NCBI GenBank assembly: GCA_013286485.1
Contig: JABDFN010000007.1
Coordinates: 1 to 40,129, forward strand
Reading direction: 5' to 3'
DNA from: Bacteroidota bacterium
GTDB lineage: Bacteria; Bacteroidota; Bacteroidia; Chitinophagales; Chitinophagaceae
DNA: 40,129 nt
Shown here: positions 9,055-37,493 of the stretch, one piece after another
Position numbering within the stretch: position 1 is the first letter of the stretch
Layout: each line of letters begins with the position of its first letter
The notes under the pieces: generated by a model
Seen by the model: only the letters and a program-made list of their open reading frames with translations
Databases searched by the model: none
Told to the model about the DNA's origin: nothing
Program-made: the position numbers and the translations under genes

Positions 9055-9118
9055 GTGGTTAGATTTGATTTAAAATTAATCATACTTACCTAAGACGCAA
9101 TATACCGGTGTTAGGTTG

Positions 9119-9154: not shown

Positions 9155-9163
9155 TATAAAAAC

Positions 9164-14200: not shown

Positions 14201-14525
14201 AGAGAACTATATCTCATTAAAACCAGGTTTCACAAAGAATTGGCTGCATATAGATGTGTACTTTTTTGGAGACGCGGGAATAATGGAATTGAGCCAATAT
14301 GCTATGCCTGATTATTGGCAAACACAACCAACCAATTTATGGAGCGATATCCGTTTTGATGGTGGTGTGGGTTTTGCTTTCACTATTAAGAAATGGCCGG
14401 TTATAGATAAAGCCAGGCCGCTTACTATACGTATAGATATACCTGTATTCATAAACAGGCCACCATATGCAAATTCACAATACACTACATTCAGGTACGT
14501 TGTTGGGGTGAGTAGAACTTTTTAA
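11274..14525 (+). CDS. M1-family metallopeptidase fused to a predicted outer-membrane beta barrel
   Basis: A 1083-residue exported protein with a signal peptide at about 1-20 (ending SAWAQ). The N-terminal half is an M1 gluzincin aminopeptidase: zinc ligands H379 and H383 in HEIGHN, third ligand E402 in MDEGF (the HExxH-18-E spacing), and a substrate-binding GMEYP at 357-361 in place of GAMEN. Family enzymes remove N-terminal residues from peptides. After about residue 670 the sequence becomes alternating, aromatic-rich beta strands. It contains GGGLNLRGYAGYF (LRGY at 942-945, like the [VL]RG[FY] motif of Omp85 barrels), FFGDAG, and a terminal phenylalanine typical of outer-membrane proteins. 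The barrel is my inference. The gene overlaps the convergent nucleotidyltransferase gene by four bases. Confidence 0.88.
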   Translation: MKANCTAIVFVFLSLSAWAQNDNSYRNKNNPLYWQNRKPYTGYWQQDVQYKIDARIDETENKIDGKEELTYWNNSPDTLHFVYFHLFQNAFVKGSHLHDLEKMNKVKAKMGKKEAQGLGTVLTHVKAGNDEAKMELDNTILKVYLNKPLYPGSSTTFSMDFTTYYDNGSTRRRMQMWDAWGTMHYNGTQWFPKLSVYDHKFGWDTYQHLNKEFYGDFGSYDVNLDFASNYVVEATGVLQNRDEVLPKELRDKLDIKNFATKKWDETPSIITPYVKGERKVWKYHADNVHDFAFTADPSYRIGTAYWNGIECVALVQEPHASGWQNAPGYIATIIKTFSEDIGMYAYPKMVAADAQDGMEYPMLTLDGGREPGYRGLFVHEIGHNWFYGMVGNNETYRAAMDEGFTQFLTAWGLRKIDGNNMVTGVPASKYRRKHMEPADALDRNVLTPYTLDALNQDEVQINTWSDDFNNGLNHGGGYREVYFKTASMLYNLQYVLGDSLFLAAMKHYFGQWKFAHPYFEDFRESVIGFTHTDLNWFFDEWFETTKRLDYGIACIHKIHGQDSFAIGFKRTGEMQMPIDFTVTAKNGNKYSYYIPNTWDEKSTNATVLPEWYGWGKFANTYIARVLIPSGIRHVQIDTTNRLADRDMEDNYRNKSNIIHPAGWNVRWDDGLAKATDRRKYRGYVRPDIWWNEVDGIKAGIHFEGGYMNLMHKTDATVWLNTHVLQSTKYSTTGDQAMFDKYVPVNYTFNYISPISRNYPKLELQIGSRLLDGLNDHSLGFIWNMSPQNTIQAYGRTLWRQMNYDLDYLIYPLEWSSTQNNVNASVNLAWAHNYSYFRGNGKYTFSLRSPFYLGGSGFDYSYGQLEAINNNTLGKLILKTRLFARYGGGNNIPHESALFLAGANSEQLMDNKYTRSVGFVPDDWGGISRYDVNHFQEGGGLNLRGYAGYFAEDQRNGNSYVAYKGRSGASVSVEADIENYISLKPGFTKNWLHIDVYFFGDAGIMELSQYAMPDYWQTQPTNLWSDIRFDGGVGFAFTIKKWPVIDKARPLTIRIDIPVFINRPPYANSQYTTFRYVVGVSRTF

Positions 14526-15448
14526 CGTAAATCAAAACCGGCTTCAGATAATTTCTTCATGATCCATTTTTGGCGGTCGGCTCTATGGTTTTTTGAAACA
14601 TGCAAACTTGTATTGAATGCAAGATGATACTGCTCGGCAGGAAGATTATTTTTCTGCCATTTTTTTCGTCTCCGCTTATCAATTATTTGCATCAATTTTT
14701 CATTCAGCCGGGTAGGCCAAAATAAATTGATTATAGTTTCCAGGGCACTTTTTATAATAGCTTTCTTATCGTTTACTATATCAACTTTTTTAAATTTCAC
14801 ATAAGTATTCGGTAAGTAATTTACGGTCCATTTGTTGGCATTTATTAGTTGCTTATAGGTCACACTATCATGCAGCGGAATAAGGCTGGCTAATTCTATA
14901 GCAATGAATATATTTTGCTGGTCAAGAGATAAATTAGAAGTATCAACAAAATAATTCATGCAAAAATTGTGCTGCAAACCAAAAAGAAAGGTCATCTTCT
15001 TGAATAAGTGCAATAAAGTATAAGATATCCAAAGCCTGTTCGTTTCTGTTACAATAAAAAAATCAAAATCATCTTTTTCTCCAACATTCCCTTTAGACAG
15101 GGAGCCTGAGATACCAACAAATTTTACAAATGGAAACCATGAAATGATCTTGCCGGATATTCTTGCACTTTTTTCTTTTTCAAGGGCAAGGATATACCCC
15201 TTTTCTCTGCGTTCTATAAGTTCTTTTATGTTATTTTGTTGACTGTAGTACTCGCCGCAATTATATATTTTATTCGCATCGTAAAGGTTGTTAAGTGCGG
15301 TTATTATTGCCGGAAAGCTGCAATATTTTGAACAACTGCCATGTATTTCATTAGCATTCAGCGGATGATTGAACATCGCATAGTAATGCAATACTCTTAT
15401 CACAGCTTCCTGTACACCTAAATCAGCATCTGTGGTCAGTTCAAACAT
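14522..15448 (-). CDS. Nucleotidyltransferase-fold protein
   Basis: A 308-residue protein. An N-terminal helical, winged-helix-like part (about 1-75) precedes a polymerase-beta-type nucleotidyltransferase core (about 105-140). The core contains GISGSLSKGN and, 14 residues after the GS, DDFDFFIVTE: the GS...DxD signature that binds nucleotide and two metal ions. The C-terminal part is basic (residues about 225-308, with RRRKKW), suggesting a nucleic-acid or phosphate-rich substrate. Members of this group transfer nucleotides to small molecules, proteins or RNA; the acceptor here is unknown. It lies at the edge of the biosynthetic region and is separated from the next gene by 345 bases, so membership in that pathway is only suggested by position. 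Confidence 0.75.
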   Translation of the reverse strand: MFELTTDADLGVQEAVIRVLHYYAMFNHPLNANEIHGSCSKYCSFPAIITALNNLYDANKIYNCGEYYSQQNNIKELIERREKGYILALEKEKSARISGKIISWFPFVKFVGISGSLSKGNVGEKDDFDFFIVTETNRLWISYTLLHLFKKMTFLFGLQHNFCMNYFVDTSNLSLDQQNIFIAIELASLIPLHDSVTYKQLINANKWTVNYLPNTYVKFKKVDIVNDKKAIIKSALETIINLFWPTRLNEKLMQIIDKRRRKKWQKNNLPAEQYHLAFNTSLHVSKNHRADRQKWIMKKLSEAGFDLR

Positions 15449-15793
15449 GTGTTACGATAAAATAGTTTAATAAATTTGTTGCATATCACTCAGTCATTAC
15501 ATACTTTTCACAATAGGGGGAGATAAATTAATAGTCATTCCATGTTTGTAGTGTATTTATAAGACGGGTATAAAATTAAAAAAGGCAGTTATTATGTCAC
15601 AATATTGACTAAAAATGGACAAAATGGTATTTTTTATGGATAGAATATGAAAAATAATTGCTGGAATTGAATAACAATGAGATACAAATTATATATAGAT
15701 AGTTTTATTTTTTTTGATAAATTTACACAATAGTATTACCCGCATTACAAACTTTATTTTTATTCGAATAAATAAATTGTTAGAAACAAAGAC
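15449..15793. other. 345-base intergenic region between divergent genes
   Basis: Very A/T-rich spacer holding the upstream regions of the nucleotidyltransferase gene (minus strand) and the Wzz-like gene (plus strand). It contains a 14-base perfect palindrome TTTATTCGAATAAA at 15759-15772, 22 bases before the plus-strand start, which could be a regulator site. No open frame, tRNA or clear TAnnTTTG promoter pair was found. Confidence 0.5.
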
Positions 15794-16654
15794 ATGACAC
15801 CAAATAATGATCTTGAGGGATTTTCTTTTTTCATATTGAGTCTTTTAAAAAAGATTGCTCAATACACGGTCCACGCTATCAGAAAAAATCTTATTGTTAT
15901 CGCTGTTATTTTTTTACTGATTTGTTCATTTAAGATTTCTAACAAATACGCTGAAAGTAGTTATTACAAGGCTGCTATGGGGTGTTATTTATACACACTT
16001 AACTATAAAATATATGGTGAAATGGCAGAAGGATTAAACACCTTAGCTGCTAACCGCTCCTATGATGATTTAGCTAAATCTTTGAACATATCTGCAGAAC
16101 AAGCAAAAAATATTTTGAGTATCACTGCTACCAATACACAAGGTATTCCGTTAAAAGATGATTTTTCGGAAGATAAAGGCCCTATGGTCTTTACAGTAAT
16201 AAGCAATAACAAAAATATTTACGCTCCATTACAACTCGGCTTGCTGAATTATTTAAAAGATAATCCAATCAATACAAAAATGAGAGATATTGATACGCCG
16301 AGAATGAACAAAAAAATAGCCTACCTCGACCAGGACATAAACATCACTGATTCAATTATCAAGACGTACATTGTTAATTCAAGAATGGCGTACTTAATTA
16401 AAGATACCGGTAAGGGAAATGTTGATATTATTTCATGGCTTTCTTATAAAGATCAATTAGAGGACAAGCGATTACAACAGGAGAACAGGAGAAATGATAT
16501 TGTAAGGTCAGTAGAAATAGCTTATGGATTTGCCCCTGCAAAAAATCCATTTTTTACTATGAGCGAACTATTTTATTTGCTATTGAAGACGCTCTTCATT
16601 TCTTGTGCGTGTGGAGTGGTTGTGAAAATAATTACTGATATATTCCGGCATTAA
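15794..16654 (+). CDS. Membrane protein with Wzz-like topology
   Basis: A 286-residue protein with one membrane helix near the N-terminus (about 33-47, NLIVIAVIFLLICSF) and one at the C-terminus (about 262-280, LFYLLLKTLFISCACGVVV). Between them lies a roughly 200-residue, helix-rich region that would face the periplasm. This two-helix hairpin layout is that of polysaccharide co-polymerases (Wzz/chain-length determinants), but I do not see the usual proline-rich motif before the second helix, so the call is by topology only. It stands alone on the plus strand, convergent with the SPASM radical SAM gene (7 bases between the stops). Neighbouring glycosyltransferases and the flippase-like ABC protein make a role in glycan assembly plausible. 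Confidence 0.6.
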   Translation: MTPNNDLEGFSFFILSLLKKIAQYTVHAIRKNLIVIAVIFLLICSFKISNKYAESSYYKAAMGCYLYTLNYKIYGEMAEGLNTLAANRSYDDLAKSLNISAEQAKNILSITATNTQGIPLKDDFSEDKGPMVFTVISNNKNIYAPLQLGLLNYLKDNPINTKMRDIDTPRMNKKIAYLDQDINITDSIIKTYIVNSRMAYLIKDTGKGNVDIISWLSYKDQLEDKRLQQENRRNDIVRSVEIAYGFAPAKNPFFTMSELFYLLLKTLFISCACGVVVKIITDIFRH

Positions 16655-16661
16655 GATTATA

Positions 16662-17702
16662 TCACAAATTCGATAAGAGGGCTAAATGCAGATAACAAAC
16701 GCATTTTTTACAGGTTTCATCATTTGCCATATCTAATCCTTTTCGGAAAAGAATATTTTCCTTACTGTTTAAAATATCACCTAGCTCATTATCTCTGATA
16801 TTGCCCATTGCTTTATGAAAAAAACATGGTCTTACTGTGCCGTCAGCCTCGATTACAGTAGATACCCATGGTGCATTGCACTTCTTATATGGGAAATCGT
16901 TCATTCCCCACAAAGCTGAATAATAGGTATATATCTTTCTGATTTTTTCCGTTGATTCAGCTATGAATCCATTTGCAAAATCTTCTTTGTAATGAGAAAT
17001 AATACGATCAATTATTTCAAGAAGTTCGGGTAATTCCTCCCTGGAGATCATAATTTCTGATTGCCTCGAAAAATCCCATGGCATTTCTCTGTTAAAGGCG
17101 TGGCTGCTTACATCGGCGGGTAAAAAGCTTACTCCGTCCAATCCAATATTTTTAGCAGCATCTATAATTTTTGGCCATACCTTATAATTAAGCCGGTGTA
17201 TAACCGTTCTGGATGTAATAGGATAATTTGGGGTTAAAGACCTTATTGCTGTTATTCCTTCTTTTATTTTGGCAAATGCTCCCGGAATATTCCTTATAGC
17301 GTCGTGTGTGGGTTCATCCCCATCAAGCGAAACAATAACATCATGCACATATTTAATGATAAGTTCGGCATTCTTTTTTAAGGTTAAACCTGTTGAAAGG
17401 AGTGTAACGTATATGCCTTGTTCATTCAATATTTCGCAAAACTTAAAAAAATTTGTATTCAGCAATGCCTCTCCGCCACTCATCAATACTTGCTGTGTAC
17501 CAAATTTCTTTAAGGTTGTCATAAGGCCTTTTATATCTTCTTCTGCTAACTGCTTCAGATTTTTATTGTCTTTCCATATATCGCACATTACGCAACGGCA
17601 ATTGCAGGCACTGTGAGGCATTAAGATCACTATAGGCAGTGCAGAAATTTTGTGAGTCTGTAAAGTTCTGTAACGTTTATATATCTGTAAGGGTGATTGC
17701 AA
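16662..17702 (-). CDS. Radical SAM protein with C-terminal SPASM-like cysteines
   Basis: A 346-residue cytoplasmic enzyme. The radical SAM [4Fe-4S] motif CxxxCxxC is C33-C37-C40 (CNCRCVMC), followed by the GGE motif (SGGEALL) that binds SAM. The C-terminus carries cysteines in KKCNAPW, RPCFF and CKKCVC, as in SPASM/twitch proteins that hold an auxiliary iron-sulfur cluster. No candidate precursor peptide was found nearby, so peptide maturation is not favoured; other members act on small molecules or lipids. The start is TTG at 17702: an in-frame stop lies three codons upstream and the next ATG is residue 28, just before the cluster motif. It follows the B12-type radical SAM gene by 11 bases, so they form an operon. 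Confidence 0.88.
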   Translation of the reverse strand: MQSPLQIYKRYRTLQTHKISALPIVILMPHSACNCRCVMCDIWKDNKNLKQLAEEDIKGLMTTLKKFGTQQVLMSGGEALLNTNFFKFCEILNEQGIYVTLLSTGLTLKKNAELIIKYVHDVIVSLDGDEPTHDAIRNIPGAFAKIKEGITAIRSLTPNYPITSRTVIHRLNYKVWPKIIDAAKNIGLDGVSFLPADVSSHAFNREMPWDFSRQSEIMISREELPELLEIIDRIISHYKEDFANGFIAESTEKIRKIYTYYSALWGMNDFPYKKCNAPWVSTVIEADGTVRPCFFHKAMGNIRDNELGDILNSKENILFRKGLDMANDETCKKCVCYLHLALLSNL

Positions 17703-17713
17703 TATCGTTTATT

Positions 17714-19213
17714 TTAAAAACCTTCTATTTCAGGTTGCCTGTATTTCCATATGACCTGTAAGGCTTTTAATTCGTATGGTTTCCAGTAAAAATTGGCTTT
17801 ATACCGTATGCCCGAAACCACGCGCATAATGCTGCGTTTTAAATTATTCAATCGTATATCAGATACTGTAGGATAATAACTATTCAGTACCACCTCAAAG
17901 TTTCTTATTTTTTCCCGCATCTCATCGGTAAGCCATGGGGTCATACCATTCTTTCTCAGATCAAAGTTTTCCCATTCTGCACCTATCCAATCTTCTAAAT
18001 TTTTTGGGTACCTGAATCCCGAATCCATTACTTGCTCAAACATTTCAGAACCTTCTGTAGGTACCGGGCTATAAGTATAAATAATGATCTCTGTTTTGGG
18101 ATTTATTTTTTTTATCTCTTTAATGAACCGTATATCAAAATCAATATTGGCCATTACATCAGCAGCAGTATCGGCCGGGGTTCCTAATACAAAAGAATAT
18201 TCCGGTATAATATCAAACTTTGCCATACGCGCTGCAAATTCTTTTAGCTGAGCTCCGGTTTGGGTGCCACCTTTATCCATTTGTGCCAATACTTTGTCAT
18301 TACCACTTTCGGCTCCAAAGAATATCATTTTACAGCCCGATCTGCGCATCAATGCCAGGGTTTCATCAGAATACTTATTAATAGTATCTATCCTTCCCCA
18401 TGCCCACCATATCATCTTTTCAGGTTCTATTAGCTTTGCGAAATCTATAGTCCTCTTTTCAGAAACAAAAAAATTATTGTCATGAAACTCTATTGCATTG
18501 CCACCATATTTTTCTTTCAGGTATTTAATGTCTTTGTACACATTTTCAGCCGATTTTCCTTTCCACCTGGCATTGTATATGGGTACTACTGCACAAAAAG
18601 AACAGGTAAAAGGACAACCTATACTTGAATGATATGCAATTGTTTTTGTGCCTAAGCACGATTTGCCAAGATACCTATGTAAAGGGTAGAAACTATTTAG
18701 TTTTTCGTATGGCAGATTCGGCAGTGAATCCTGGTCATACAGTTCATCTTTTCTTGTCTTAATAATATTATCGCCGGATCTGTATATCAGGTTGCTGATA
18801 AGTTCATAAGGCTTGTTATTTTCAAGAGTATCTACTAATGCCGGGAAAGACTTTTCGCCCGGACCATTAACTATAAAGTCAACATATCCCGAAAGTAGTA
18901 CCACCTTCGGTTGTCCGGCAGGGAAGTACCCCCCCCATATTATTTTTATTTCAGGAAATAGTTCGCGCGTTTTCTTTGAGATTGGTATGGCCTGTTTCAA
19001 CTGGGGCCCCGGCATACAGGTAAGGCCAAAATACTTATATTCTCCTGTTTTGAAATAATTAAATATTTTCTCGGCAGGGTTTGTTTCCATATTGCCATCT
19101 ACTATCACATACTCATATTTACCATCAATAGATCCGGCAATGGATAAGATGGAATTAGGTATACGTGGCTTAAATTTTAAACTTCTTGGATTGAATAATA
19201 ATACTTTATTCAT
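17714..19213 (-). CDS. B12-binding-type radical SAM enzyme
   Basis: A 499-residue protein with the BchE-like two-domain layout. An N-terminal Rossmann-like, cobalamin-binding-type region (about 1-135, with VLLFNPR, YFGLTCMPGP, IIWGGYFPAG, VDFIVNGPGE) precedes a radical SAM domain with CxxxCxxC at C200-C204-C207 (IGCPFTCSFCAV). The KYGGNAIEFHDNNFF stretch follows, as in this class. The base-on cobalamin motif DxHxxG is not evident. Known relatives carry out methylations, cyclisations or C-C bond changes on unactivated carbons, including in hopanoid, bacteriochlorophyll and antibiotic pathways; the substrate here is unknown. It is followed by the SPASM radical SAM gene 11 bases downstream; together they form a two-gene operon. 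Confidence 0.88.
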   Translation of the reverse strand: MNKVLLFNPRSLKFKPRIPNSILSIAGSIDGKYEYVIVDGNMETNPAEKIFNYFKTGEYKYFGLTCMPGPQLKQAIPISKKTRELFPEIKIIWGGYFPAGQPKVVLLSGYVDFIVNGPGEKSFPALVDTLENNKPYELISNLIYRSGDNIIKTRKDELYDQDSLPNLPYEKLNSFYPLHRYLGKSCLGTKTIAYHSSIGCPFTCSFCAVVPIYNARWKGKSAENVYKDIKYLKEKYGGNAIEFHDNNFFVSEKRTIDFAKLIEPEKMIWWAWGRIDTINKYSDETLALMRRSGCKMIFFGAESGNDKVLAQMDKGGTQTGAQLKEFAARMAKFDIIPEYSFVLGTPADTAADVMANIDFDIRFIKEIKKINPKTEIIIYTYSPVPTEGSEMFEQVMDSGFRYPKNLEDWIGAEWENFDLRKNGMTPWLTDEMREKIRNFEVVLNSYYPTVSDIRLNNLKRSIMRVVSGIRYKANFYWKPYELKALQVIWKYRQPEIEGF

Positions 19214-19349
19214 AGTTCACTAAAGTTAGGCATTTATCATATTAGACGAGCAAAAGAAACCTGAAACGGTATATTTATACACTATGCCTTTGAAATAAGG
19301 TGCTGAATCAATAGTAGTACAACATCCCTTATAAATTCTATTGTCTGAA

Positions 19350-20315
19350 TTATCTCAATAAATATTCTGATTTTATTCCGTTCTTATCCCTCCATGTAGC
19401 ATAGCATTTATGTATATGTGCCAATGCATGTTTATTGTCTGCTATTTTTTTGGTATTAGTAATTTTAAAAAACATGAACTTATGGATGCCATGTGCAAAT
19501 GATGATAATAATTCAAGTTCTTTATATTCAATCAAACCTTTAGGTAGAGGTAAATTGTACAGCTCAGAATGCCCATCAATAAAATCAAAATTTTCTTTAG
19601 CAACTAATTCCTTCATGTGGTTTTTACCTAAGCTATATACTTTTATATAGTTAGAGGAATGAATGTCTGATATTAATATCTTCTTATTTTCTTCAACTTG
19701 CGAACATGCTTTTCCGCCAATACGCAATGATATTATATAGTATCCGTTAATCATTCCATGTAGATCGGTAGGGAAAATATTATATTTTTCATCGCTCCCA
19801 ACTGTTATAAGACATACTTTTCTAGGGAGTGAATAAACAACCTGAACAGTTTTATATACTCTGTTTGTAAGATAGATATTCCCCTTTTTTTTATTGAAAA
19901 GAACATTGTGAAGATCAAAAATAAGTTGGTGAAAACTATTTGTAAATTTATGTTCACCTTTAACAGCTTCGTAGTAACTGATATGCAGATCATCAATTAT
20001 AAATTGATGTATCTTTTTTAGTAATAGCGTAGCTAATTCTTTTTTATTGTTTATTATTTCACCCGGCAAATAACTTTCATTGGCAAATGACATATGAGTA
20101 TATGCATTAGGATTATAGGTCCCGTAATCCCAGAAAGCCGCAATGCTATAGCCTATAATTAAATGCTCAAAACTAATTTCTTTTAAAATTTTCTTTTGCG
20201 GGGTTACTAGGTATACGTGAAGTGGATTTTGCATATCACCTTTTGAAAGGCATAAAAATTCCTGTATATAATTGAGGCCGTTGATTTTGTGAAATATTTT
20301 ATTAGCAAGCTTCAT
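19350..20315 (-). CDS. Putative flavin-reductase-like (FMN-binding split barrel) protein
   Basis: A 321-residue protein. The first 155 residues match nothing I recognise. The second half resembles flavin reductase/flavoredoxin proteins: SLPRKVCLITVGSDEKYNIF at about 165-185, TDLHGMINGYYIISLRIGG, then ILISDIHSS, and near the end LIEYKELELL...AHGIHKFMFFKITNTK. The last piece corresponds to the family's pattern in which a strand precedes a GDH-type loop. If right, it would bind FMN and supply or use reducing equivalents. The gene is divergent from the first GT4 gene (97 bases apart) and 136 bases upstream of the B12-type radical SAM gene. It may supply electrons to the radical SAM enzymes, which is inference. 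Confidence in the coding region is high, in the family moderate. Confidence 0.6.
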   Translation of the reverse strand: MKLANKIFHKINGLNYIQEFLCLSKGDMQNPLHVYLVTPQKKILKEISFEHLIIGYSIAAFWDYGTYNPNAYTHMSFANESYLPGEIINNKKELATLLLKKIHQFIIDDLHISYYEAVKGEHKFTNSFHQLIFDLHNVLFNKKKGNIYLTNRVYKTVQVVYSLPRKVCLITVGSDEKYNIFPTDLHGMINGYYIISLRIGGKACSQVEENKKILISDIHSSNYIKVYSLGKNHMKELVAKENFDFIDGHSELYNLPLPKGLIEYKELELLSSFAHGIHKFMFFKITNTKKIADNKHALAHIHKCYATWRDKNGIKSEYLLR

Positions 20316-20412
20316 CTGTTGTGTTGATCTAACAATATTTTTAAGGATATTTACAAATATATATGAATTGTCAAATTGTTTATTGTGAAAGCAGCGAAAT
20401 TAATCTTGTAAA

Positions 20413-21525
20413 ATGATAAAACTTATTGATTTATCCTTTTATGCTTATACTGATCATGCTAGATTTTCGCAGGTATTGAAATCGCTAAGACAATCTTTAG
20501 GGTATGCTAAATTTTTAAATAACAACATAAATACACAATTTGTAAAGCACTTTGACAGTAATAGCTATGAAACGATTGATGGTATTCGGTATGCAGGGTT
20601 TAAAAGCCGTAATAAATTCTGGTATATACCATTTAACACTTTACGATATATAAAAAGAGAAAAACCTGACATTATATTGGTGCAGGGGCTAAAATTTCCA
20701 ATTCAAACCATTGCTCTCAGGTTATTTGTCGGTAAAAGACCAAAGATTATAGTGCAGCATCATGGCGAATTACCATTGAAAGGACTAAAACACCCTTTTT
20801 CTAAATTAGCTGATATGGCTGTAGATGCATATATTTTTACTTCGCGGGGAAATTTCAAGCTATGGGAAAAGAATAATAATATCAGGAAGAACAGGCCTTG
20901 CTTCGAGGTACTTGAAGCTTCTACAAATTTTCAAAAACAAGATAATAAACTGTCTAAAAATAAATTAGGCATAAAAACTGATAACAATTTTTTGTGGGTA
21001 GGAAGGCTTGATGATAATAAAGATCCGCTAACTGTACTAAACGGGTTTGAGCAATATTTGACAATTGAGCCCGACGCAAAACTACATATGATTTATCAAT
21101 ATGATGGCTTATTAGGCAAAGTGAAGAACACCATTAATAATAGCACTTTATTAAAAAATGCCGTACGTCTTGTTGGTAAAGTTGCGCACGATGAATTGGT
21201 TTTTTGGTTTAGCGCTTGCGAATTCTTTATACTGGGCAGCCACAAAGAAGGTTCCGGATATGCGTTAATAGAGGCTATGGCATGCGGATGTATTCCGGTT
21301 GTTACTGATATCCCATCTTTTAATAAAATAACTAGCGATGGCCGTTATGGTTTTTTATATGAAGTAGGCAATACAGGCAGCTTATTTAGTGTGCTGAAAA
21401 ACTTGCACGCAATAGATAAGACAGAAATGTCAGAGAAAATTGTTGAGCATTTTTCTGAAGAGTTATCATTTAAAAAAATAGCTGACAACTTATATGGTAT
21501 TTTCAGGAAGCTGGTAACCGAATAA
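20413..21525 (+). CDS. Family 4-like glycosyltransferase
   Basis: A 370-residue GT-B glycosyltransferase. The N-terminal Rossmann half includes KPDIILVQGLKFP and KIIVQHHGEL. The C-terminal half begins with NFLWVGRLDDNKDPLTVLNG and carries the donor-binding EX7E element in KEGSGYALIEAMACGC, followed by PVVTDIPSF, as in GT4 retaining enzymes that use nucleotide-sugar donors. No membrane segment is seen, so it is cytoplasmic or peripheral. Its last 36 bases overlap the end of the convergent second glycosyltransferase gene, which is unusual. The acceptor is unknown. It is the only plus-strand gene between two minus-strand operons and may be expressed separately. Confidence 0.88.
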   Translation: MIKLIDLSFYAYTDHARFSQVLKSLRQSLGYAKFLNNNINTQFVKHFDSNSYETIDGIRYAGFKSRNKFWYIPFNTLRYIKREKPDIILVQGLKFPIQTIALRLFVGKRPKIIVQHHGELPLKGLKHPFSKLADMAVDAYIFTSRGNFKLWEKNNNIRKNRPCFEVLEASTNFQKQDNKLSKNKLGIKTDNNFLWVGRLDDNKDPLTVLNGFEQYLTIEPDAKLHMIYQYDGLLGKVKNTINNSTLLKNAVRLVGKVAHDELVFWFSACEFFILGSHKEGSGYALIEAMACGCIPVVTDIPSFNKITSDGRYGFLYEVGNTGSLFSVLKNLHAIDKTEMSEKIVEHFSEELSFKKIADNLYGIFRKLVTE

Positions 21526-22563
21526 GTTCAGCACATTTTGTGCAATATCATCCATTTTATAAACTTCAATAGGCTGATATTTTGTATGAGGATCATTAAG
21601 AAGTTTATATGCTTTCGCTGCCATTTCTTCTTTTGTTGCTACTATATGCCAATTTTGTATTTCGCTATGCATGGGCTTGCAAAAGCTTATCACATGTGCG
21701 CCCGCATACAAGGCTTCCAGGCATACTGTGCTAAATCCCTCATAAGATGATGGATGAAGAAATACCTTTGATCGCTGCATGAGTTTTAGAACTTCTGTAT
21801 GTTGTTTTTCATTCGTTATTTCTATGCTATCTTCTAATTGCAGGATAGCTACTTGATTTCGTAATGCTTTTTCTTCAGGTCCCTTACCACACAATATGCT
21901 TTTTATCCCGGGTAACTGTTTTGAAACAGCATTTACAACATCAACGAATATTGAATATTGCTTTAATGGTATTAGCGATCCCGCGCCCATTATATCTATA
22001 TCTTTGTTCGGGTTCGTATTATCAAACAATGTTTTGTCAATGCCATTTGGAAGTATACGGGAAGGCATTACACCGTAATTCTTATAAAACTCATTTGCCA
22101 GGAAGTCAGACATGGCTACCAGTTCATATGGTTGGGTTTGCATCAATCTTGCAAAAACATTACCCTTTTTAACATCCTGGCCTATTAACCAACATATGCT
22201 TTTCTTATGGTGCCTTATCGCAAACCTTTTAGCTATCAATGCATGTTCTCCTATCCACAGACTCATAGTCCCAACTACATTATATTCTTTATTGAGTTTG
22301 CTTAATACTCGCCAAAGCATTATCAATTCAAATGGTTTTCTTAAAATTCCCTTTTTTGCATACAAGCTAATTACTTTATTCCCATACCATGTATAAGTTG
22401 ATCTGGTATGAGGGTATTGATATGCTATTATTACAATATTCCAATCAGGAAATTTTTTGTTCAATGCTTTTATCAGCAGTTGAAGAAATGGCAAATTCGT
22501 GGTGTCTTCCTCATTTATAGCAAACCCGGGGCTTATTAGTACCAGTGTTTTATTGCTGTTCAT
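21490..22563 (-). CDS. Family 4-like glycosyltransferase (operon member)
   Basis: A 357-residue GT-B glycosyltransferase. Features include LVLISPGFAINEEDTTNLPF at the N-terminus, KSICWLIGQDV, the mid-protein PNGIDKTLF, IMGAGSLIPLKQYSIFVDVV opening the second Rossmann half, and the EX7E-type YEGFSTVCLEALYAGAHV. It should transfer a sugar from a nucleotide donor to an unknown acceptor. The start ATG at 22563 overlaps the end of the ABC transporter gene by 14 bases, so translation is likely coupled. It is the last gene of the six-gene operon that begins at 28373, and its 3' end overlaps the convergent GT4 gene by 36 bases. Confidence 0.88.
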   Translation of the reverse strand: MNSNKTLVLISPGFAINEEDTTNLPFLQLLIKALNKKFPDWNIVIIAYQYPHTRSTYTWYGNKVISLYAKKGILRKPFELIMLWRVLSKLNKEYNVVGTMSLWIGEHALIAKRFAIRHHKKSICWLIGQDVKKGNVFARLMQTQPYELVAMSDFLANEFYKNYGVMPSRILPNGIDKTLFDNTNPNKDIDIMGAGSLIPLKQYSIFVDVVNAVSKQLPGIKSILCGKGPEEKALRNQVAILQLEDSIEITNEKQHTEVLKLMQRSKVFLHPSSYEGFSTVCLEALYAGAHVISFCKPMHSEIQNWHIVATKEEMAAKAYKLLNDPHTKYQPIEVYKMDDIAQNVLNLFGYQLPENTI

Positions 22564-24211
22564 CTAACGAGATTATTTTATTGCATACAGACATATTATT
22601 CATATTATGCGATATAAGTAGTATCATTTTTCCTTGTTGGGCAAGCGATTTAAAATGTTCCAACAAAAGGAGCTCTGAAGTTTTATCCAGTTCATTAAAA
22701 GGCTCATCTAAAATTATCAGGTTCGAATCTTTATACAAAGCCCTTGCTATTGCTATTCTTTGCCTTTGCCCGCCGCTTATGTTCTTGCCATTGTCTGTAA
22801 TAAGCGTTTCTAATTCAGTTTGATGATTTTTGATCAGGTTATCTAAGCCACTGGCCTCTATTGCAGCTTGCAACCTGTCATTGTCCGGCTGTTCTTCAAA
22901 ACTGATGTTTTTCAGCAAAGTATCATGAACAAGAAACGTTTGTTGTTTTACATAAGAAATATCATTCCAGTACTGCTGTATATTATTTGCGGCTACAGGT
23001 TTATTATTTATGAATATAGTCCCTTCATCTGCTTGTAAAAATCCTAGTAATAGGTTAACAATTGTAGTTTTCCCTTTTCCTGAAGGCCCAGATATGCCTA
23101 TAATATCTCCGGGTACTATTTTTAGATTAATGTTGTTTATAGATGCCTTTTCCGAATGAAAATATGATACATGCGACAGTTCTATAGAAGTTATTTTATT
23201 TTCAGATAACTTATTGCCGGATGAGTTTGCCTCGTGAATGATATTATTCAGTGTGAATTCATGAGTTTTTATGTGTGCAGCAATATTTGATATTTTCACT
23301 ATCCCCGGTATTAATTTATAGGCCGCTATCATAAATACGCCTATACTAATTATTTCTCCCGGTAAGGATGTTGTCATTTCCCTATTGGCGATTATTAAAA
23401 CAGACAATCCTAAAACAGCAAAAATTTCTATGAGCCTGGTGGGTAATCCCTGTGTTACTTGTATATCAGATAAGTACTTGTTTAGTTTTTTTTGTTGCCC
23501 CGAATACCTGTTAATGAAGAAAGTATGTTTATCATAAATGTTACTCTCAATATATCCTGCTAAGGCTTCATGTAAATATTGTAATGTTAACTCAGACGTG
23601 GTTTTGGCGTGTTCCCTCGCTTCTTTGAGTTTGCGCCTGGAAAAGTAGGTAACAATAAAAATAGGTGGCAGTAATACTATAAGCAATAATAAGAACAGCC
23701 CCGGTTTATATATAAGTATGCCTATAACAGTAAAGCATATTAAAGCAATTTCAGTTGCCATTTGCTGTATCCCAAGTAAAATATATTGTGCAAATTGTAT
23801 GGGATGATCGCTTATTTGCCTGATATAAGTTGATGGTGGTATATGAATGTAGTTGCTATGTTTGCCTTCTAAATAATGCAGCAGGTTGTTGGCAGATATT
23901 CTTGATGCCACCCGGTACATAAACCCATACTGTTTGTGATAATGGATATATCCTGCAACGCTTTTGATGGTAAACAGGATGCTGAATAGTAGTATTAATG
24001 TAAACGAATTTTTATCGGATATCCATTGAGGTAAAAAAGTAAATTGTTTACTTGTATTGTTTTGTGTATAGAATGCAATTACAAATAATAACAATGCCAG
24101 AAATGCAACATCACCTATGCTCACAATAAAATTTAATACCATGGAAGAATAGAATTTTTTCTTTTCCTCAGGGGTGAGTATTAAATGTATTTTATGCAGT
24201 AGTTGTTTCAA
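22550..24211 (-). CDS. ABC transporter resembling PglK lipid-linked glycan flippases
   Basis: A 553-residue half-transporter. The permease domain (about 20-320) has six predicted helices and ends EIISIGVFMIAAYKLIPGI, close to the corresponding part of Campylobacter PglK. The N-terminus HLILTPEEKKKFYSSM is likewise similar in layout. The ATPase domain has Walker A GPSGKGKT (375-382), signature ISGGQ (478-482) and Walker B LIILDE (498-503). PglK flips undecaprenyl-diphosphate oligosaccharides across the inner membrane; a similar lipid-linked cargo here is inferred from sequence and from the adjacent glycosyltransferase. The start is TTG at 24211, since residues 1-23 belong to the conserved N-terminus and the next ATG is residue 24. 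It lies 12 bases after the amidohydrolase gene. Confidence 0.85.
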   Translation of the reverse strand: MKQLLHKIHLILTPEEKKKFYSSMVLNFIVSIGDVAFLALLLFVIAFYTQNNTSKQFTFLPQWISDKNSFTLILLFSILFTIKSVAGYIHYHKQYGFMYRVASRISANNLLHYLEGKHSNYIHIPPSTYIRQISDHPIQFAQYILLGIQQMATEIALICFTVIGILIYKPGLFLLLLIVLLPPIFIVTYFSRRKLKEAREHAKTTSELTLQYLHEALAGYIESNIYDKHTFFINRYSGQQKKLNKYLSDIQVTQGLPTRLIEIFAVLGLSVLIIANREMTTSLPGEIISIGVFMIAAYKLIPGIVKISNIAAHIKTHEFTLNNIIHEANSSGNKLSENKITSIELSHVSYFHSEKASINNINLKIVPGDIIGISGPSGKGKTTIVNLLLGFLQADEGTIFINNKPVAANNIQQYWNDISYVKQQTFLVHDTLLKNISFEEQPDNDRLQAAIEASGLDNLIKNHQTELETLITDNGKNISGGQRQRIAIARALYKDSNLIILDEPFNELDKTSELLLLEHFKSLAQQGKMILLISHNMNNMSVCNKIISLDEQQ

Positions 24212-24223
24212 CAGTATAGTGTA

Positions 24224-25363
24224 TTAGTGTATTGGTATCGCTGCTTTTGTTGAATAGGATTTTATTTTTTGTATTAAACCCGGTAGGTCACCTTCTACAA
24301 ATTTGCTTTTGCCATTAATAGTTATTTTACTGAAATTACTAAACTTATTACTCGCAACTTGTTTTTGTAAGGTTTCGTCATATAACCTTACATTGCCTTT
24401 ATGCATCACTAGTAGTATATCCTCTGGGTTTATGTTATAAAACGACTCTGATATTGTAGCACCATTTTTAATATTAGCAATAACAATATCAGCATTATAA
24501 CCTGCTTTTAAAGAACCTGTATCTTGTAGTCGGCAAGCGTTTGCGGCATTTGTAGTTAGACTGTTATACAACTCTTCATTAGTTAGCATCTTTTCTGTTC
24601 TTCCCTTGCGTATATGTTCCCATATATTCCAATGGGCCGTTAGTGTCGAGTCTGTTCCGAAAAGAATGGTTGTATGTTGTTTTAGTTTATCAATTGGAGC
24701 AGTAGCACCAACAAGGAAGTAGTTAGAATCCGGGCACCAGGCCAAAGCATGAAAACCATGAGCCTGTTCACTGTCCATTGCAATGCCATGAATAGCAATT
24801 ATTTTTTTCTTAATAAAGTTCCACTTCAGCAGATCCGTTATTTCCTTATGAGACACAGCATCTGTCCCTTCTCCAACATGAACCTGTATAAGGCTATTTG
24901 TTAAGGGATTATTCAATTTTAAAAATATGCTTTTCTCAAATCCTACAGAATGCAATGCTTTTATTTTTTGTACTACATTGATCAATTCATTATCAATTTG
25001 CAGCTGTGCTCCATGATTTACAACTGTAGTAACTCCGCAGATAAGGTTTTTATAAATACCCCATTGTGTACGTAAGTCTATTGGTATTTTAAGCACATCA
25101 TTAATAATATCCTTATTATGCAGATGAATGTCTGTACCCCATTCCCTGTAATTTTGATAAATGCGGTTGCCTATTTTAGGAAATACGTTAAGTTCTAAAT
25201 GATCGTGCGCATTTATAAGCCCTGGAAATACAATAGCATTATCAAAATGGATACCTGGATCATCAATAGCTGTATCATTTCGGGATATATGGCTTATTTT
25301 CTCACCCGGTATACTAATGTCAATTATCTCATTATGAATGGTGTGGAGATTACGAAGCAGCAT
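24224..25363 (-). CDS. Amidohydrolase-superfamily enzyme (deaminase/chlorohydrolase type)
   Basis: A 379-residue cytosolic metal-dependent hydrolase. Candidate metal ligands follow the cytosine-deaminase/TRZ-ATZ pattern: H53 and H55 in NAHDHLE, H162 with E166 in VHVGEG, H192 in AIHGIAMD, and D238 in FGTDS. The C-terminal GYNADIVIANI block belongs to the small beta domain. Members hydrolyse C-N bonds of amides, nucleobases, triazines or related rings, so the substrate probably contains such a bond. Its ATG at 25363 overlaps the preceding methyltransferase gene by 14 bases, and the flippase gene follows 12 bases later, placing it firmly in the operon. An amidohydrolase in a glycan-export operon is unusual and points to a nitrogen-containing intermediate. 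Confidence 0.88.
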   Translation of the reverse strand: MLLRNLHTIHNEIIDISIPGEKISHISRNDTAIDDPGIHFDNAIVFPGLINAHDHLELNVFPKIGNRIYQNYREWGTDIHLHNKDIINDVLKIPIDLRTQWGIYKNLICGVTTVVNHGAQLQIDNELINVVQKIKALHSVGFEKSIFLKLNNPLTNSLIQVHVGEGTDAVSHKEITDLLKWNFIKKKIIAIHGIAMDSEQAHGFHALAWCPDSNYFLVGATAPIDKLKQHTTILFGTDSTLTAHWNIWEHIRKGRTEKMLTNEELYNSLTTNAANACRLQDTGSLKAGYNADIVIANIKNGATISESFYNINPEDILLVMHKGNVRLYDETLQKQVASNKFSNFSKITINGKSKFVEGDLPGLIQKIKSYSTKAAIPIH

Positions 25364-26096
25364 CTTCTTTTTTTATGTGCATACCGTATATAATAGCGCT
25401 TCCCTTATGCTTTTCGTATACATGCAGGGCGTTTTGTTTGGTATAGTAGTGTTTTAATCTGTCGTCAATAACAATTTCCTCAAAATACAATATTCTTAAA
25501 TGAAGTCGTGATAGTATTTCTTTAATGGTATCAATGCTATGAATATAATTCTTAACTGCTACCGTTTTGCCCCCATATGAAAAAGTTCTTTGCCCACCTT
25601 GAGCAAGATTGGAAGGGTGATAATCAGTAAGTAACATTTCTCCTGTTCTTTTTAAAACCCTGTTCCACTCTGTTATGGCTTCTTCAATATTGTCTATATG
25701 TGCTATAGCAAGAGTAGAGATGATCACGTCGCAAGATTCATTTGCTAAATTAGACAGCTTATTAGAACTGAGTTGAGATACATTGGCATCAGGATACTTT
25801 AATTGTAATTTATGTAGCATCTCAATAGATACATCATAACCATACACCTGCTTGGGTTCCTGTTTACTTATTTTCCCCCAATGCCTGCCTGTTCCGCAAC
25901 CCACGTCTGCAACAACTTTACCTTTTAAGTTTGTATTGCCCAGCAGCTTTGAAAATAATTGTTCATCCAATGCAAGTATCAGGTTATCCGGCTGTGAATC
26001 GTATGTTTGGGCCCATAGGTCATAAGCCTCTGCAGCTTCGGTTTCTCTTATTGTATTAGGTAGTAATATGCGTTTTATTTTATCAAGCAGGGCCAT
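25350..26096 (-). CDS. Class I SAM-dependent methyltransferase (second in operon)
   Basis: A 248-residue methyltransferase. SAM-binding motif I VVADVGCGTGR is at about 61-71, the acidic-loop GYDVSIEML about 15-25 residues further, then CDVIISTLAIAHIDNIEEAI and the post-motif NRVLKRTGEMLLTDYHP, the usual layout of the UbiE/COQ5-like group. It transfers a methyl group to O, N or C of a small molecule; the acceptor is unknown. It starts 4 bases after the stop of the other methyltransferase gene and its 3' end overlaps the amidohydrolase gene by 14 bases. The two adjacent methyltransferases share little sequence outside the SAM fold, so they probably act at different positions. Confidence 0.88.
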   Translation of the reverse strand: MALLDKIKRILLPNTIRETEAAEAYDLWAQTYDSQPDNLILALDEQLFSKLLGNTNLKGKVVADVGCGTGRHWGKISKQEPKQVYGYDVSIEMLHKLQLKYPDANVSQLSSNKLSNLANESCDVIISTLAIAHIDNIEEAITEWNRVLKRTGEMLLTDYHPSNLAQGGQRTFSYGGKTVAVKNYIHSIDTIKEILSRLHLRILYFEEIVIDDRLKHYYTKQNALHVYEKHKGSAIIYGMHIKKEDAAS

Positions 26097-26100
26097 TAGG

Positions 26101-26925
26101 TTATTGTTTTTTTCTCAGGGTAATAATATAATAATCGCCTATGTTTTTCCACGGCCATTTTGTTTTTAATTGCGCTTCCTTTCTTTTTAAAAGATTAAAC
26201 GTGTTAGGATGCTTATCTGCAAAATGTTCAAAATAAGATGGTGGAACGATCGTACAAAGCCCCTCCACACTTACCAATTCAAATTCGTTAGCTGCGGCTT
26301 TAACAACATCAGATGCTTTGTAATACCAGCAGGTAAAGTTTACACCTTCTATATGTGCAGCAGCGCCATTTTTGCTGCCTAGCCTTCGAAAAGCTGATTT
26401 AAAGTTGCCGCGTACTGCCAATGCTAATTCCCATAAGCAAAATGGAGGTAGCAATACCATGGTTACCATTCCCCGGCGTTTTAGTAATACAGGTAATGTT
26501 CTTAATATTTCAGGAAGACGGTCAGTGCAGTTCAATCCTGCAAAATTGGAAAAGATAAGATCGAACGGGCCTTTGTTTTTCAGATCTTGTAATGCAAGAA
26601 AAGAACATTGTTCTACGGATATATTATTTACAAGGCCTTTATCTGCCACCTTGGTTTTTAGTTTTTCCAGCATGCCTGCTGCAATATCTGTAGCATGAAC
26701 AGTATGCCCGCGTTGCGCAAAATAGATACTGTCTTCACCTGTGCCCGCGTTTAATTCTAATATACTACTATGTGCTGTAAGAAATTGTTCTACATGAGCT
26801 CTTACACGCTCTCTTTTATATTGTACGATCTTATTATTGCTATAGATATCATCGAATATTGCAGACTGCTTACTAAAAGCAGCGGCAGCAAGTTGTTCAT
26901 GTATGGTATGTGCTGGATCCGGCAT
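26101..26925 (-). CDS. Class I SAM-dependent methyltransferase (first in operon)
   Basis: A 274-residue methyltransferase. Motif I is ILELNAGTGEDSIYFA, with HATDIAAGMLEKL as the acidic loop and GPFDLIFSNFAGLNC as motif II. I chose ATG at 26925 because it forms a TAATG overlap with the stop of the upstream radical SAM gene and has GAGAAG six bases upstream. An alternative start at 26991 would add 22 residues lying entirely inside the upstream gene. The C-terminal region (VNFTCWYYKASDV, LCTIVPPSYFEHF) is hydrophobic, consistent with a lipid-like acceptor, but this is inference. Coupled translation with the B12-type radical SAM suggests both act on the same molecule. Confidence 0.85.
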   Translation of the reverse strand: MPDPAHTIHEQLAAAAFSKQSAIFDDIYSNNKIVQYKRERVRAHVEQFLTAHSSILELNAGTGEDSIYFAQRGHTVHATDIAAGMLEKLKTKVADKGLVNNISVEQCSFLALQDLKNKGPFDLIFSNFAGLNCTDRLPEILRTLPVLLKRRGMVTMVLLPPFCLWELALAVRGNFKSAFRRLGSKNGAAAHIEGVNFTCWYYKASDVVKAAANEFELVSVEGLCTIVPPSYFEHFADKHPNTFNLLKRKEAQLKTKWPWKNIGDYYIITLRKKQ

Positions 26926-28373
26926 TATATGCTTCTCTCTAATGCTTTTAATCTGTACGATGCTATTATTTGTGAAGGTATATAATAGCACACGGCAACC
27001 ATTTTTCTAAGGCCTTTAATGGGGTCACTGAATATTTTTTGTATACTTTCTATTGCTACGTGCATTCGGTGATTGTTCTGAACATAATGGTGCAGCTGTT
27101 TATAATACTCAGGTTGGTAAGTATTTCGGAACATCAGCTTCAATTCATCACTATCGGTCCAGTTGGCCTTTTCCTTTAGGTCTTGCTTTACTTTCTCATA
27201 AAAGCCTGTCCCTGGTAGTGGGTAAGATACAGATACACCAATGCTGTATGGCATCAGTTGATTGATCATTTTTATGGTCTTCTGTATATCTTCTTTTGTT
27301 TCTCCCAAATAACCAAATTGTATAAAAAAGGAAGGCTTAATACCATTTGCTTTTAATAATCTTGTTGACGCTGCTATCTGCTCTATGGTAGTGCCTTTAT
27401 CCATAGCATCTAATATCTTTTGCGAGCCGCTCTCGGCGCCTATCCACACATTATCGCAGCCTGCACGCGCTAGCGCCTTTATATTGTTTTCCTGCAATAG
27501 CAGGTCTGCACGCGATTGTATCTTAAATTTCAGGTGCAGCTGTTCCTTTTCTACCAGGTCAGCAAACTCATTCACCCAGCCTGGCTTCAAGCCAAATATG
27601 TCATCACAAAACCAAATATGGTCAAACCCATATTTCTCTTTCAGGAATTTTAGTTCATTCACTACATTTTGCGGCGAACGGGTATTATAACGATTACCAT
27701 AAATTGGTTTTGCACACCAGTTGCATTTAAAAGGACAACCGCGCGTAGTGCCCATATTAATAGAAAAATATCCTGAGCTTTTCTGCCATGCTTTCTTGTA
27801 TGGTTCCATATCTACAAGGTCCCATGCCGGTGTTGGTAAACTATCCAGGTCTTTCATCACATTTCGGTGAACGGTCTTTATAGTATTACCATGTTCCCTG
27901 TAAGTAAGCCCCTGTATGTTTGAGAAGTCTGTAGTATTGGTTTTTATTGCATTTGCTGCTTCCAGTAGTGTCATCTCAGCTTCACCCAGTATTACAAGAT
28001 CGGCTCCTGCATCCATGTACATTTCAAAATGATCTGTTGAATCCGAACTGGAGACTACCACTTTGCAACCGCGTTCCTTGGCCATCTTGCTCATTTCAAA
28101 CGCAGCCTCCCGCATATTGGTAAGGCACATTTTAGTGAGGTAGTTAAACCCATCATCATATATCACCAGCAGGTCAGGCTGATACGTTTCTAATATAAGC
28201 AGAATGTCCTTCGCGCTTTCCGCAAACATCACATCGTGTATGCGCACATCATAGCCATGTTCTCGCAGCACTGCGGCAGCATACATGGTCCCCAGTGGAG
28301 CATAAGGTTGCTGTAACGCCCATTGTTTGGGATCGAAACGGAGAAAATAAGAATGAGTGAATAATACACGCAT
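26925..28373 (-). CDS. B12-binding-type radical SAM enzyme (first gene of operon)
   Basis: A 482-residue protein. The N-terminal cobalamin-type Rossmann domain (about 1-145) begins MRVLFTHSYF and includes PYAPLGTMYAAAVLREHG, YDVRIHDVMF, VVVSSSDSTDH and ADLVILGEAEMT. The radical SAM domain has CxxxCxxC at C213-C217-C220 (TRGCPFKCNWCAKP), then IWFCDDIFGL and IGAESGSQKILDAMDKG. The C-terminal helical part carries PYSIGVSVSYPLPGT. It belongs to the BchE/HpnJ-like class that carries out methyl transfer or oxidative cyclisation at unactivated carbon. A good promoter lies 50-81 bases upstream, and five more genes follow with overlaps or gaps of at most 12 bases. Confidence 0.9.
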   Translation of the reverse strand: MRVLFTHSYFLRFDPKQWALQQPYAPLGTMYAAAVLREHGYDVRIHDVMFAESAKDILLILETYQPDLLVIYDDGFNYLTKMCLTNMREAAFEMSKMAKERGCKVVVSSSDSTDHFEMYMDAGADLVILGEAEMTLLEAANAIKTNTTDFSNIQGLTYREHGNTIKTVHRNVMKDLDSLPTPAWDLVDMEPYKKAWQKSSGYFSINMGTTRGCPFKCNWCAKPIYGNRYNTRSPQNVVNELKFLKEKYGFDHIWFCDDIFGLKPGWVNEFADLVEKEQLHLKFKIQSRADLLLQENNIKALARAGCDNVWIGAESGSQKILDAMDKGTTIEQIAASTRLLKANGIKPSFFIQFGYLGETKEDIQKTIKMINQLMPYSIGVSVSYPLPGTGFYEKVKQDLKEKANWTDSDELKLMFRNTYQPEYYKQLHHYVQNNHRMHVAIESIQKIFSDPIKGLRKMVAVCYYIPSQIIASYRLKALERSI

Positions 28374-28454: not shown

Positions 28455-28500
28455 TAAAATACTATCAACAGGGGATTAAATAGGATGAAGCGAAAGCAAA

Positions 28501-28527
28501 AATCCCCGCTATCAGCGGGGATTTTAT
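28501..28527 (-). terminator. Rho-independent terminator of the atp operon
   Basis: A ten-pair perfect stem AATCCCCGCT (28501-28510) / AGCGGGGATT (28514-28523) with loop ATC, flanked by A and T runs so that it could act on either strand. On the minus strand it lies about 70 bases after the atpA stop. A second imperfect hairpin (CCCCCT..GACAC pairing with GTGTC..GGGGG, 28543-28585) lies between it and atpA. Confidence 0.9.
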
Positions 28528-34252: not shown

Positions 34253-34687
34253 TTAATTAAAATCGAGAGTAGCAGAGCCGCCGCCGGTATTGGTCCAAGT
34301 AGCGGTGATAGTAGTACCAGGACATGGTGGAATAGCCGAAACCCATGAATAGGTAAAGGAAATAACACATGGTCCAGAAGGTGCAGGACATAGCCAAGTG
34401 CAATAGTTACCTACTCCATAATAATAGCATGTGGAGCAAGCATCACCAACAGTTGCGAAGTCCCAAGCCCCTGAAGGAATAGAAAGGGTGGGATAGACTG
34501 TACCACCACCGGCAATTGTCATTAAGCCATAGTTTGCGTCAGGCAAAGTACATAGTCCACCTGCTGAGTAATTAGCTATGAAATTAATAGACTCGCACGT
34601 ATTGTTTGTTACTGTAAGAGTTATTTGTGCTTTAACACTTGAAACAGCAAATAAAGCGAGCAATAAAATAAAACTGATTTTTTTCAT
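34253..34687 (-). CDS. Small exported cysteine-rich protein (family member A)
   Basis: A 144-residue protein with a clear signal peptide (about 1-20, ending VKAQ). The mature part opens LTVTNNTCESINF, has a central glycine patch (IAGGGTVYPTLSIPSG), several cysteines (CSTCYY, GNYCTWLC, GPCV) and ends in a beta-rich GGGSATLDF. The opening TVxNN..C, the GGG turn and the G[DN]xC element recur in three neighbouring genes, so these form one family by sequence. There is no T9SS sorting domain. I recognise no known family; the protein is probably periplasmic or secreted, with disulfides. It is the last gene before a strong terminator; the gap to the preceding gene is 61 bases. Confidence 0.75.
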   Translation of the reverse strand: MKKISFILLLALFAVSSVKAQITLTVTNNTCESINFIANYSAGGLCTLPDANYGLMTIAGGGTVYPTLSIPSGAWDFATVGDACSTCYYYGVGNYCTWLCPAPSGPCVISFTYSWVSAIPPCPGTTITATWTNTGGGSATLDFN

Positions 34688-34748
34688 AGAATTGATTTTA
34701 TTGTGGTTAATAATAGATGTTTAAAATGATAAGGTTTGCAGGGAAATA

Positions 34749-35186
34749 TTAGTTGATATCAACTGTTACAGCGCCTCCGGGAGCTCTTGTCCAGGTAACA
34801 TTAATAGTAGCGCCTGCGCAACCGCCACAACATTGTGTATAGCTATTAGTTGTAAAAGCCCCGCAATAATCGCCTACTGTAGTATAGCAACGACCTCCTA
34901 ACGGTAGTACACATGTATCAAGCACCTGTACATTCTCCCATGTAGAACCGGGAGGGGGCGCAGAGCCTGCCCAGATAAAGGGGTTTGCTATATCAAGCAC
35001 AATTGAGCCACCGCCAGCAATATAATTTGGCGTAGTAACATAATAAAGCCCAGTGCAGACAGGAGAAGCTTCGGCTGTACCTATAATGTGAAAGGCACAA
35101 GTGAGGTGGTTATTAACTGTAACCGTTTGAGCTTTTACAATTGCAAAGGCAAATAGTGCAGCAGTAATAAGAATGATCTTTTTCAT
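34749..35186 (-). CDS. Small exported cysteine-rich protein (family member B)
   Basis: A 145-residue protein with signal peptide (about 1-19, ending VKAQ). The mature part begins TVTVNNHLTCAFHII and contains IAGGGSIVLDI, APPPGSTWENVQVLDTC, VGDYCGAF and a cysteine cluster QCCGGC, then ends in ATINVTWTRAPGG. It shares the NN..C opening, GGG turn, PP..W segment, VLD and G-D-x-C motif with the two 138-residue paralogs at 35255 and 37494, and the C-terminal TxTxTWT strand with member A. The eight or so cysteines suggest disulfides. The function is unknown. It sits 68 bases after the preceding member. Confidence 0.75.
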   Translation of the reverse strand: MKKIILITAALFAFAIVKAQTVTVNNHLTCAFHIIGTAEASPVCTGLYYVTTPNYIAGGGSIVLDIANPFIWAGSAPPPGSTWENVQVLDTCVLPLGGRCYTTVGDYCGAFTTNSYTQCCGGCAGATINVTWTRAPGGAVTVDIN

Positions 35187-35254
35187 AGATTGATTTTTTA
35201 TTGTTAATAGAATGATTAGCTATTATTCGACTGTTACAAATTTGGTAGCACCAG

Positions 35255-35671: not shown

Positions 35672-35732
35672 AAAATTTAATTTAGATTAAAGACTATTAT
35701 TGTTTTATCTTAAAATAATTATGTTCAAAAGA

Positions 35733-37442: not shown

Positions 37443-37493
37443 GAATTTTGTTTTTGATGGTTAAGAAAAAAGTAACTGAAATGAAAAATAATC

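Follow-up and report, generated by a model that had tools for sequence, protein, structure and literature searches.

A conserved radical-SAM tailoring set in a probable polysaccharide assembly locus of Bacteroidota

Results

A radical-SAM gene set in a probable polysaccharide locus

The window analysed here (40,129 nucleotides) is the entire contig JABDFN010000007.1 of a Chitinophagaceae member of the Bacteroidota (assembly GCA_013286485.1, 132 contigs, ~60% complete). It contains a run of six minus-strand genes encoding a B12-binding radical S-adenosylmethionine (SAM) protein (rSAM1), two methyltransferases (MTA and MTB), an amidohydrolase (AH), an ABC half-transporter (ABC) and a GT4-type glycosyltransferase (GT4a), which an earlier sequence-only reading had taken for a dedicated operon making a methylated, nitrogen-containing, glycosylated and lipid-linked molecule. 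We find that the six genes are not a natural unit and are part of a cluster of ~12 genes (14522-28373, Table 1) that also encodes a nucleotidyltransferase (NT), a second B12-binding radical SAM protein (rSAM2), a SPASM radical SAM protein (SPASM), a Wzz-like protein, a flavin-reductase-like protein (orf321a) and a second glycosyltransferase (GT4b). The locus is probably one for the assembly of a Bacteroidota surface polysaccharide or exopolysaccharide (O-antigen- or exopolysaccharide-type), equipped with a conserved radical-SAM tailoring set.

The set is widely conserved. Three other Chitinophagaceae genera (loci L007-L009) hold the same genes with order and orientation changed, the Wzz-like and flavin-reductase-like genes being missing in some; protein identity is 33-67% in the five families aligned, and three relatives carry an rSAM1 with 60-64% identity. 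When 84,980 species genomes were scanned with rSAM1, at least 539 coding matches of whatever strength were obtained. The top 80 are 62-71% identical and all Bacteroidota by title, apart from one titled only 'bacterium'; they include Chitinophagaceae, Mucilaginibacter, Niastella, Terrimonas and Puia, and the set is repeated in most of the 80 loci that are long enough. We clustered all open reading frames (ORFs) of these 80 loci together with L007-L009 and the window (84 loci). Families present in about 30-83 of them comprise rSAM1, MTA, NT, rSAM2, SPASM, MTC (a third methyltransferase, which the window lacks), GT4a, GT4b, AH, MTB, WZY, PGT, ABC and others. Across 396 genomes sampled evenly from the phylum, rSAM1 was found in 27 and AH in 10, every one of the latter being rSAM1-positive; with the window genome excluded, all nine AH-positive genomes fall among the 26 rSAM1-positive of 395 (P = 5e-12, uncorrected for kinship). 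The families therefore co-occur across Bacteroidota, and the failure of conservation that would have told against the original proposal was not seen. The plasmids searched for rSAM1 gave one remote Rhizobium match (28%) only, and no match to rSAM2 was found in the viral contigs searched. Four Niastella loci (L062, L071, L085 and L082) have two rSAM1 copies flanking MTA.

The genes that recur around the set are those of polysaccharide assembly: PGT (a sugar-1-phosphate transferase), WZY (a polymerase resembling O-antigen ligases), the GT4-type families c11 and c14, the GT2 families c15, c19 and c20, a Wzx-type family (c18) and a polysaccharide deacetylase (c21). In most cases the set has PGT, WZY or additional glycosyltransferases close by. 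The domains PF02397 (sugar-1-phosphate transferase) and PF04932 were confirmed in neighbours of the set in relatives. A WZY member is present in 24 of the 54 loci with sufficient flank, and Wzy_C was found in L008; L007-L009 all carry a sugar-phosphate transferase and two of them a Wzy-like gene. Elsewhere in the window genome, contig C66 holds a matching PGT gene (294 bits) with c11 and c14, and contig C12 holds c15, c16, c18 and a Wzy-like gene. The Wzz-like protein of the window is hydrophobic over two stretches, about 25-52 and 258-285, and its family profile picks up a protein close to the L009 Wzy-like gene as well as a WZY-adjoining protein in L138. GT4b adjoins GT4a in 29 loci. A separate observation concerns c16, a family of ~551 residues (e.g. 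L015 9690-11324) that lies between GT2 and Wzx genes in many loci; the member tested matched no Pfam family.

These shared neighbours lend good support to the glycosylation and lipid-linked transfer that had been proposed from the sequence. They favour polysaccharide assembly over a separate small lipid-linked molecule, comprising as they do a sugar-phosphate transferase, a Wzy/ligase, a Wzz-like protein, Wzx and several glycosyltransferases. The nitrogen in the proposed product had been deduced solely from the amidohydrolase, which is optional (see below). One might still picture a short unit that is flipped by the ABC protein and passed on by a ligase-like transferase without polymerisation, whether for O-glycosylation of proteins or as some other lipid-anchored oligosaccharide. 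Among the solved structures listed, PglK comes closest to the ABC protein over the full length, just two glycosyltransferases are regularly nearby and 'WZY' might be a ligase; however, the set is adjoined by Wzz-like proteins and, in many loci, by additional glycosyltransferases and a Wzx, so that a polymer fits better and we regard the oligosaccharide as quite improbable.

In distant phylum members the recurring unit is at its smallest NT-rSAM1, generally accompanied by MTA. L145 has NT-rSAM1-MTA-GT87-GT9-rSAM2 with overlapping genes, and L149 has NT-rSAM1-MTA-rSAM2-MTB-AH-MTC-SPASM on the same strand, its MTA carrying a fused domain whose GT29 match is weak and under the curated cut-off. The radical enzymes of both loci are thus interleaved with other glycosyltransferases, which argues for polysaccharide assembly. 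At 16885-19251 of L149, straight after the eight-gene set, lie genes for a cytidine deaminase, then a thymidine kinase-like and a NupC-type nucleoside transporter-like protein; these are either chance neighbours or a hint of a pyrimidine-nucleotide link.

Some observations weigh against a role in polysaccharide assembly. The window itself contains neither PGT nor Wzy. Glycan genes are few around some of the distant loci limited to NT-rSAM1(-MTA), and therefore the kernel may act outside polysaccharide. C-methylation, moreover, is assumed here from B12-radical-SAM precedent, and relatives in the class also do other chemistry.

Interchangeable modules and a hybrid locus

We then asked which genes of the set are coupled. 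Overlapping or near-touching pairs are rSAM1-MTA (78 loci, median gap -4), MTC-SPASM (48 loci), MTB-AH (38 loci) and ABC-GT4a (24 loci). The MTA/MTB and AH/ABC junctions of the window occur in none of the other loci of the 84, so that the operon amounts to three conserved pairs brought together locally. With six further window genes belonging to the set, the six-gene unit proposed earlier does not hold.

In the 54 loci with sufficient flank, AH and MTB are both present in 35 and both absent in 19, and MTB never occurs without AH. Another methyltransferase, the MTS-type c17, is present in all 19 loci that lack AH and MTB and in none of the 35 that have them (0/35). AH+MTB (module A) and c17 are mutually exclusive, interchangeable modules; the GT2 family c19 and orf321a occur mainly alongside c17. 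Since the loci share descent, Fisher values for this exclusivity overstate independence, and repeated changes on the rSAM2 tree are the better evidence: the module label needs five changes on that tree, at least four of them forced by well-supported branches. The window combines AH+MTB with orf321a, and its rSAM2 groups with the c17 lineage (77% to L021). Constraining it to the AH lineage was rejected (approximately unbiased test, P = 0.007). This is most simply explained if the window is a natural hybrid and its module has been exchanged.

The tailoring enzymes are distant from named families

In rSAM1 and rSAM2, a B12-binding domain is combined with the radical SAM motif CxxxCxxC, whose cysteines are invariant in the aligned relatives. 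AprD4, BchE, HpnJ and OxsB are among the nearest named families. The BchE/HpnJ/PhpK/AprD4 group, which gave the best family matches, shares the radical SAM core and B12-binding domain with the window proteins, but scores are far under the curated cut-offs (BchE, 146 vs 481), as is every NCBIfam equivalog score of rSAM1. The possible hopanoid locus raised at the outset found no backing: HpnJ scored 138.7 bits against a cut-off of 577.6, and there were no hopanoid genes among the neighbours scanned. TIGR04295 ('B12_rSAM_oligo'), a B12-radical SAM family whose oligosaccharide link is suggested by name only, gave 102 bits against a cut-off of 400, so the window protein is not a member. By class precedent, rSAM1 and rSAM2 may transfer a methyl group to carbon.

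The deaminase-type ligands predicted for AH (H53, H55, H162, H192 and D238) are indeed all invariant in 29 sequences, likewise E165. AH shares the HxH, HxxE, H and D set with 5'-deoxyadenosine, MTA/SAH (methylthioadenosine/S-adenosylhomocysteine) and guanine deaminases, its best family matches, but reaches no more than 45 bits (cut-off 617), lacks a full-length profile match and, unlike them, has an invariant W209 in a WCPxSN motif (29 sequences). It may hydrolyse a C-N bond. AH might serve just to remove the 5'-deoxyadenosine or SAH left by the radical SAM and methyltransferase reactions, but type B loci, which hold comparable sets of such enzymes yet lack AH, speak against this. In NT, the active-site motif GS...DxD is invariant (S114-S116, D127 and D129); PF18765 was found in 25/26 family members and PF01909 in 24/26, and a fold search returned partial matches only, to the minimal nucleotidyltransferase fold. 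For rSAM1, rSAM2, AH and NT, the libraries searched gave no named family at cut-off beyond superfamily level. The closest families, solved or named, are remote and of mixed kinds, so that no substrate can be named.

Some of these relatives would suit a specialised metabolite resembling an aminoglycoside or nucleoside, either secreted or bound to the cell. It would be built from sugars, methylated and deaminated, with the ABC protein as its exporter and the polysaccharide genes as chance neighbours. The best solved relative of the SPASM protein is BlsE, a nucleoside-antibiotic enzyme; AprD4 of apramycin is matched by both rSAM1 and rSAM2; the superfamily of AH is rich in deaminases; and, more weakly, the NT fold is as in aminoglycoside enzymes. 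All of these matches are distant, however; in several genera the set is repeatedly accompanied by PGT, Wzy and Wzz-like genes, and no resistance or regulator family recurs among the annotated clustered neighbours. We therefore consider such a metabolite unlikely. SPASM-type radical SAM enzymes are also frequent peptide maturases, and three radical SAM enzymes might mature a ribosomally synthesised and post-translationally modified peptide. Among 1187 intergenic candidates from the 84 loci, however, we found no conserved small ORF; the largest family occurs in 5/84 loci and lies outside the core, in which no precursor peptide is conserved. A peptide product is thus very improbable.

Gene calls and boundaries

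ORF coordinates bear out the six same-strand genes with their overlaps and small gaps (TAATG at 26925, overlaps of 14 bases at two junctions, and gaps of 4 and 12 bases at the other two), and Pfam matches bear out their families. The mechanical ORF of MTA begins further out, at GTG 26991. Of the label 'PglK-like', the architecture stands, PglK being the best full-length match among the solved-structure matches listed, but membership of the NCBIfam PglK equivalog does not (183.1 bits against a cut-off of 1000). A near-consensus promoter had been placed ahead of the operon. We found no support for it: a sigma-70 scan gave 34 sites vs 38.8 in shuffles, the nearest overlapping the start codon, and no TAnnTTTG box was found between 28374 and 28592. 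A terminator-like hairpin (Table 1) parts the cluster from ATP synthase genes. In the family of orf321a, PF01613 was found in 17/22 members, and its predicted structure (pLDDT 86) matched flavin reductases (Foldseek E 2.8e-10).

Table 1. Genes and boundary feature of the cluster in the window
Feature	Position	Strand	Assignment
NT	14522..15448	-	pol-beta type nucleotidyltransferase, winged-helix-like N-terminus
Wzz-like protein	15794..16654	+	two transmembrane segments; probable chain-length regulator, from family profile and topology
SPASM	16662..17702	-	SPASM radical SAM protein; PF04055 1.3e-16, PF13186 1e-12; best PDB matches BlsE and SkfB
rSAM2	17714..19213	-	second B12-binding/radical SAM protein; type-B part of rSAM2 tree
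orf321a	19350..20315	-	flavin-reductase-like (FMN split barrel); marker of lineage B
GT4b	20413..21525	+	second GT4-type glycosyltransferase; PF00534 2e-18; convergent with GT4a, 3' ends overlap
GT4a	21490..22563	-	GT4-type glycosyltransferase; PF00534 3.2e-22
ABC	22550..24211	-	flippase-like ABC exporter half-transporter, TTG start; PF00005 1.6e-31; full-length PglK match (PDB)
AH	24224..25363	-	amidohydrolase superfamily; HxH/HxxE/H/D set; PF01979 8.7e-15
MTB	25350..26096	-	class I SAM methyltransferase, half of module A
MTA	26101..26925	-	class I SAM methyltransferase; ATG at 26925 within TAATG overlap with rSAM1
rSAM1	26925..28373	-	B12-binding/radical SAM protein, CxxxCxxC; PF04055 2.5e-24, PF02310 3.3e-8
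Hairpin	28499..28525		terminator-like, G+C-rich, 12 pairs; T-run also in minus direction

Outside the cluster, the window encodes another ABC exporter half-transporter (4285-6075), whose ABC_membrane domain is complete. Three proteins with Por_Secre_tail sorting domains (7249-10558 and 35733-37442) point to type IX secretion, and around the tagged protein at 35733-37442 are four related small secreted-looking proteins of 138-145 residues (34253-37910). The closest pair of these is 73% identical and the others ~32%; the three tested had no Pfam match.

Discussion

Family assignments and gene context suggest how the locus might work. A small sugar-1-phosphate transferase, encoded on another contig, would load the first sugar onto undecaprenyl phosphate, GT4a and GT4b would elongate the lipid-linked glycan, and the PglK-like ABC protein would flip the lipid-linked unit, which a Wzy/ligase with its Wzz-like partner would polymerise or attach. 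The radical SAM set would make or alter a building block of the glycan, a sugar or cyclitol; the radical enzymes may act on a sugar, a cyclitol or the lipid-linked glycan. The kernel NT+rSAM1+MTA, together with rSAM2 and SPASM, could provide changes centred on carbon, for example C-methylation or rearrangement, along with O- or N-methylation, and AH+MTB, or the other methyltransferase (often with GT2 and the flavoprotein), could set a lineage-specific decoration.

The closest known systems are Wzy-dependent O-antigen and exopolysaccharide loci, whose PF02397, GT4/GT2, Wzy_C, Wzz-like and Wzx components recur around the set in many loci. Those loci carry the usual nucleotide-sugar genes, whereas here we find three radical SAM proteins, two or three methyltransferases, an amidohydrolase and a nucleotidyltransferase, and an ABC flippase beside or in place of Wzx. 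In the Campylobacter pgl system, flipping is by PglK, which the ABC half-transporter matches over its full length, but the window protein is far under the PglK cut-off and no oligosaccharyltransferase was seen nearby. The machinery for assembly belongs to a known kind, and the tailoring set is, as far as we can tell, undescribed. We found no description of the gene combination in the open-access literature searched, which is weak evidence of novelty as most subscription journals were outside it.

A bolder proposal, which we offer tentatively and think less than even odds, is that these loci make a widespread, undescribed class of bacterial glycan. The radical SAM enzymes would construct a new skeleton, either of a sugar or of a cyclitol, that is C-methylated, rearranged or decarboxylated, the set's own nucleotidyltransferase would activate it, and interchangeable end-modules (AH with its methyltransferase, or another methyltransferase) would diversify the polymer between strains. 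If our main reading of the locus as one for a radical-SAM-tailored surface glycan is right, ~7% of the sampled Bacteroidota genomes (27/396 with rSAM1) would hold a B12-radical surface-glycan pathway or its kernel, vitamin B12 supply would be tied to the make-up of the cell surface, and new sugar structures would be added. The swappable modules are a ready genetic test for assigning enzymes to decorations.

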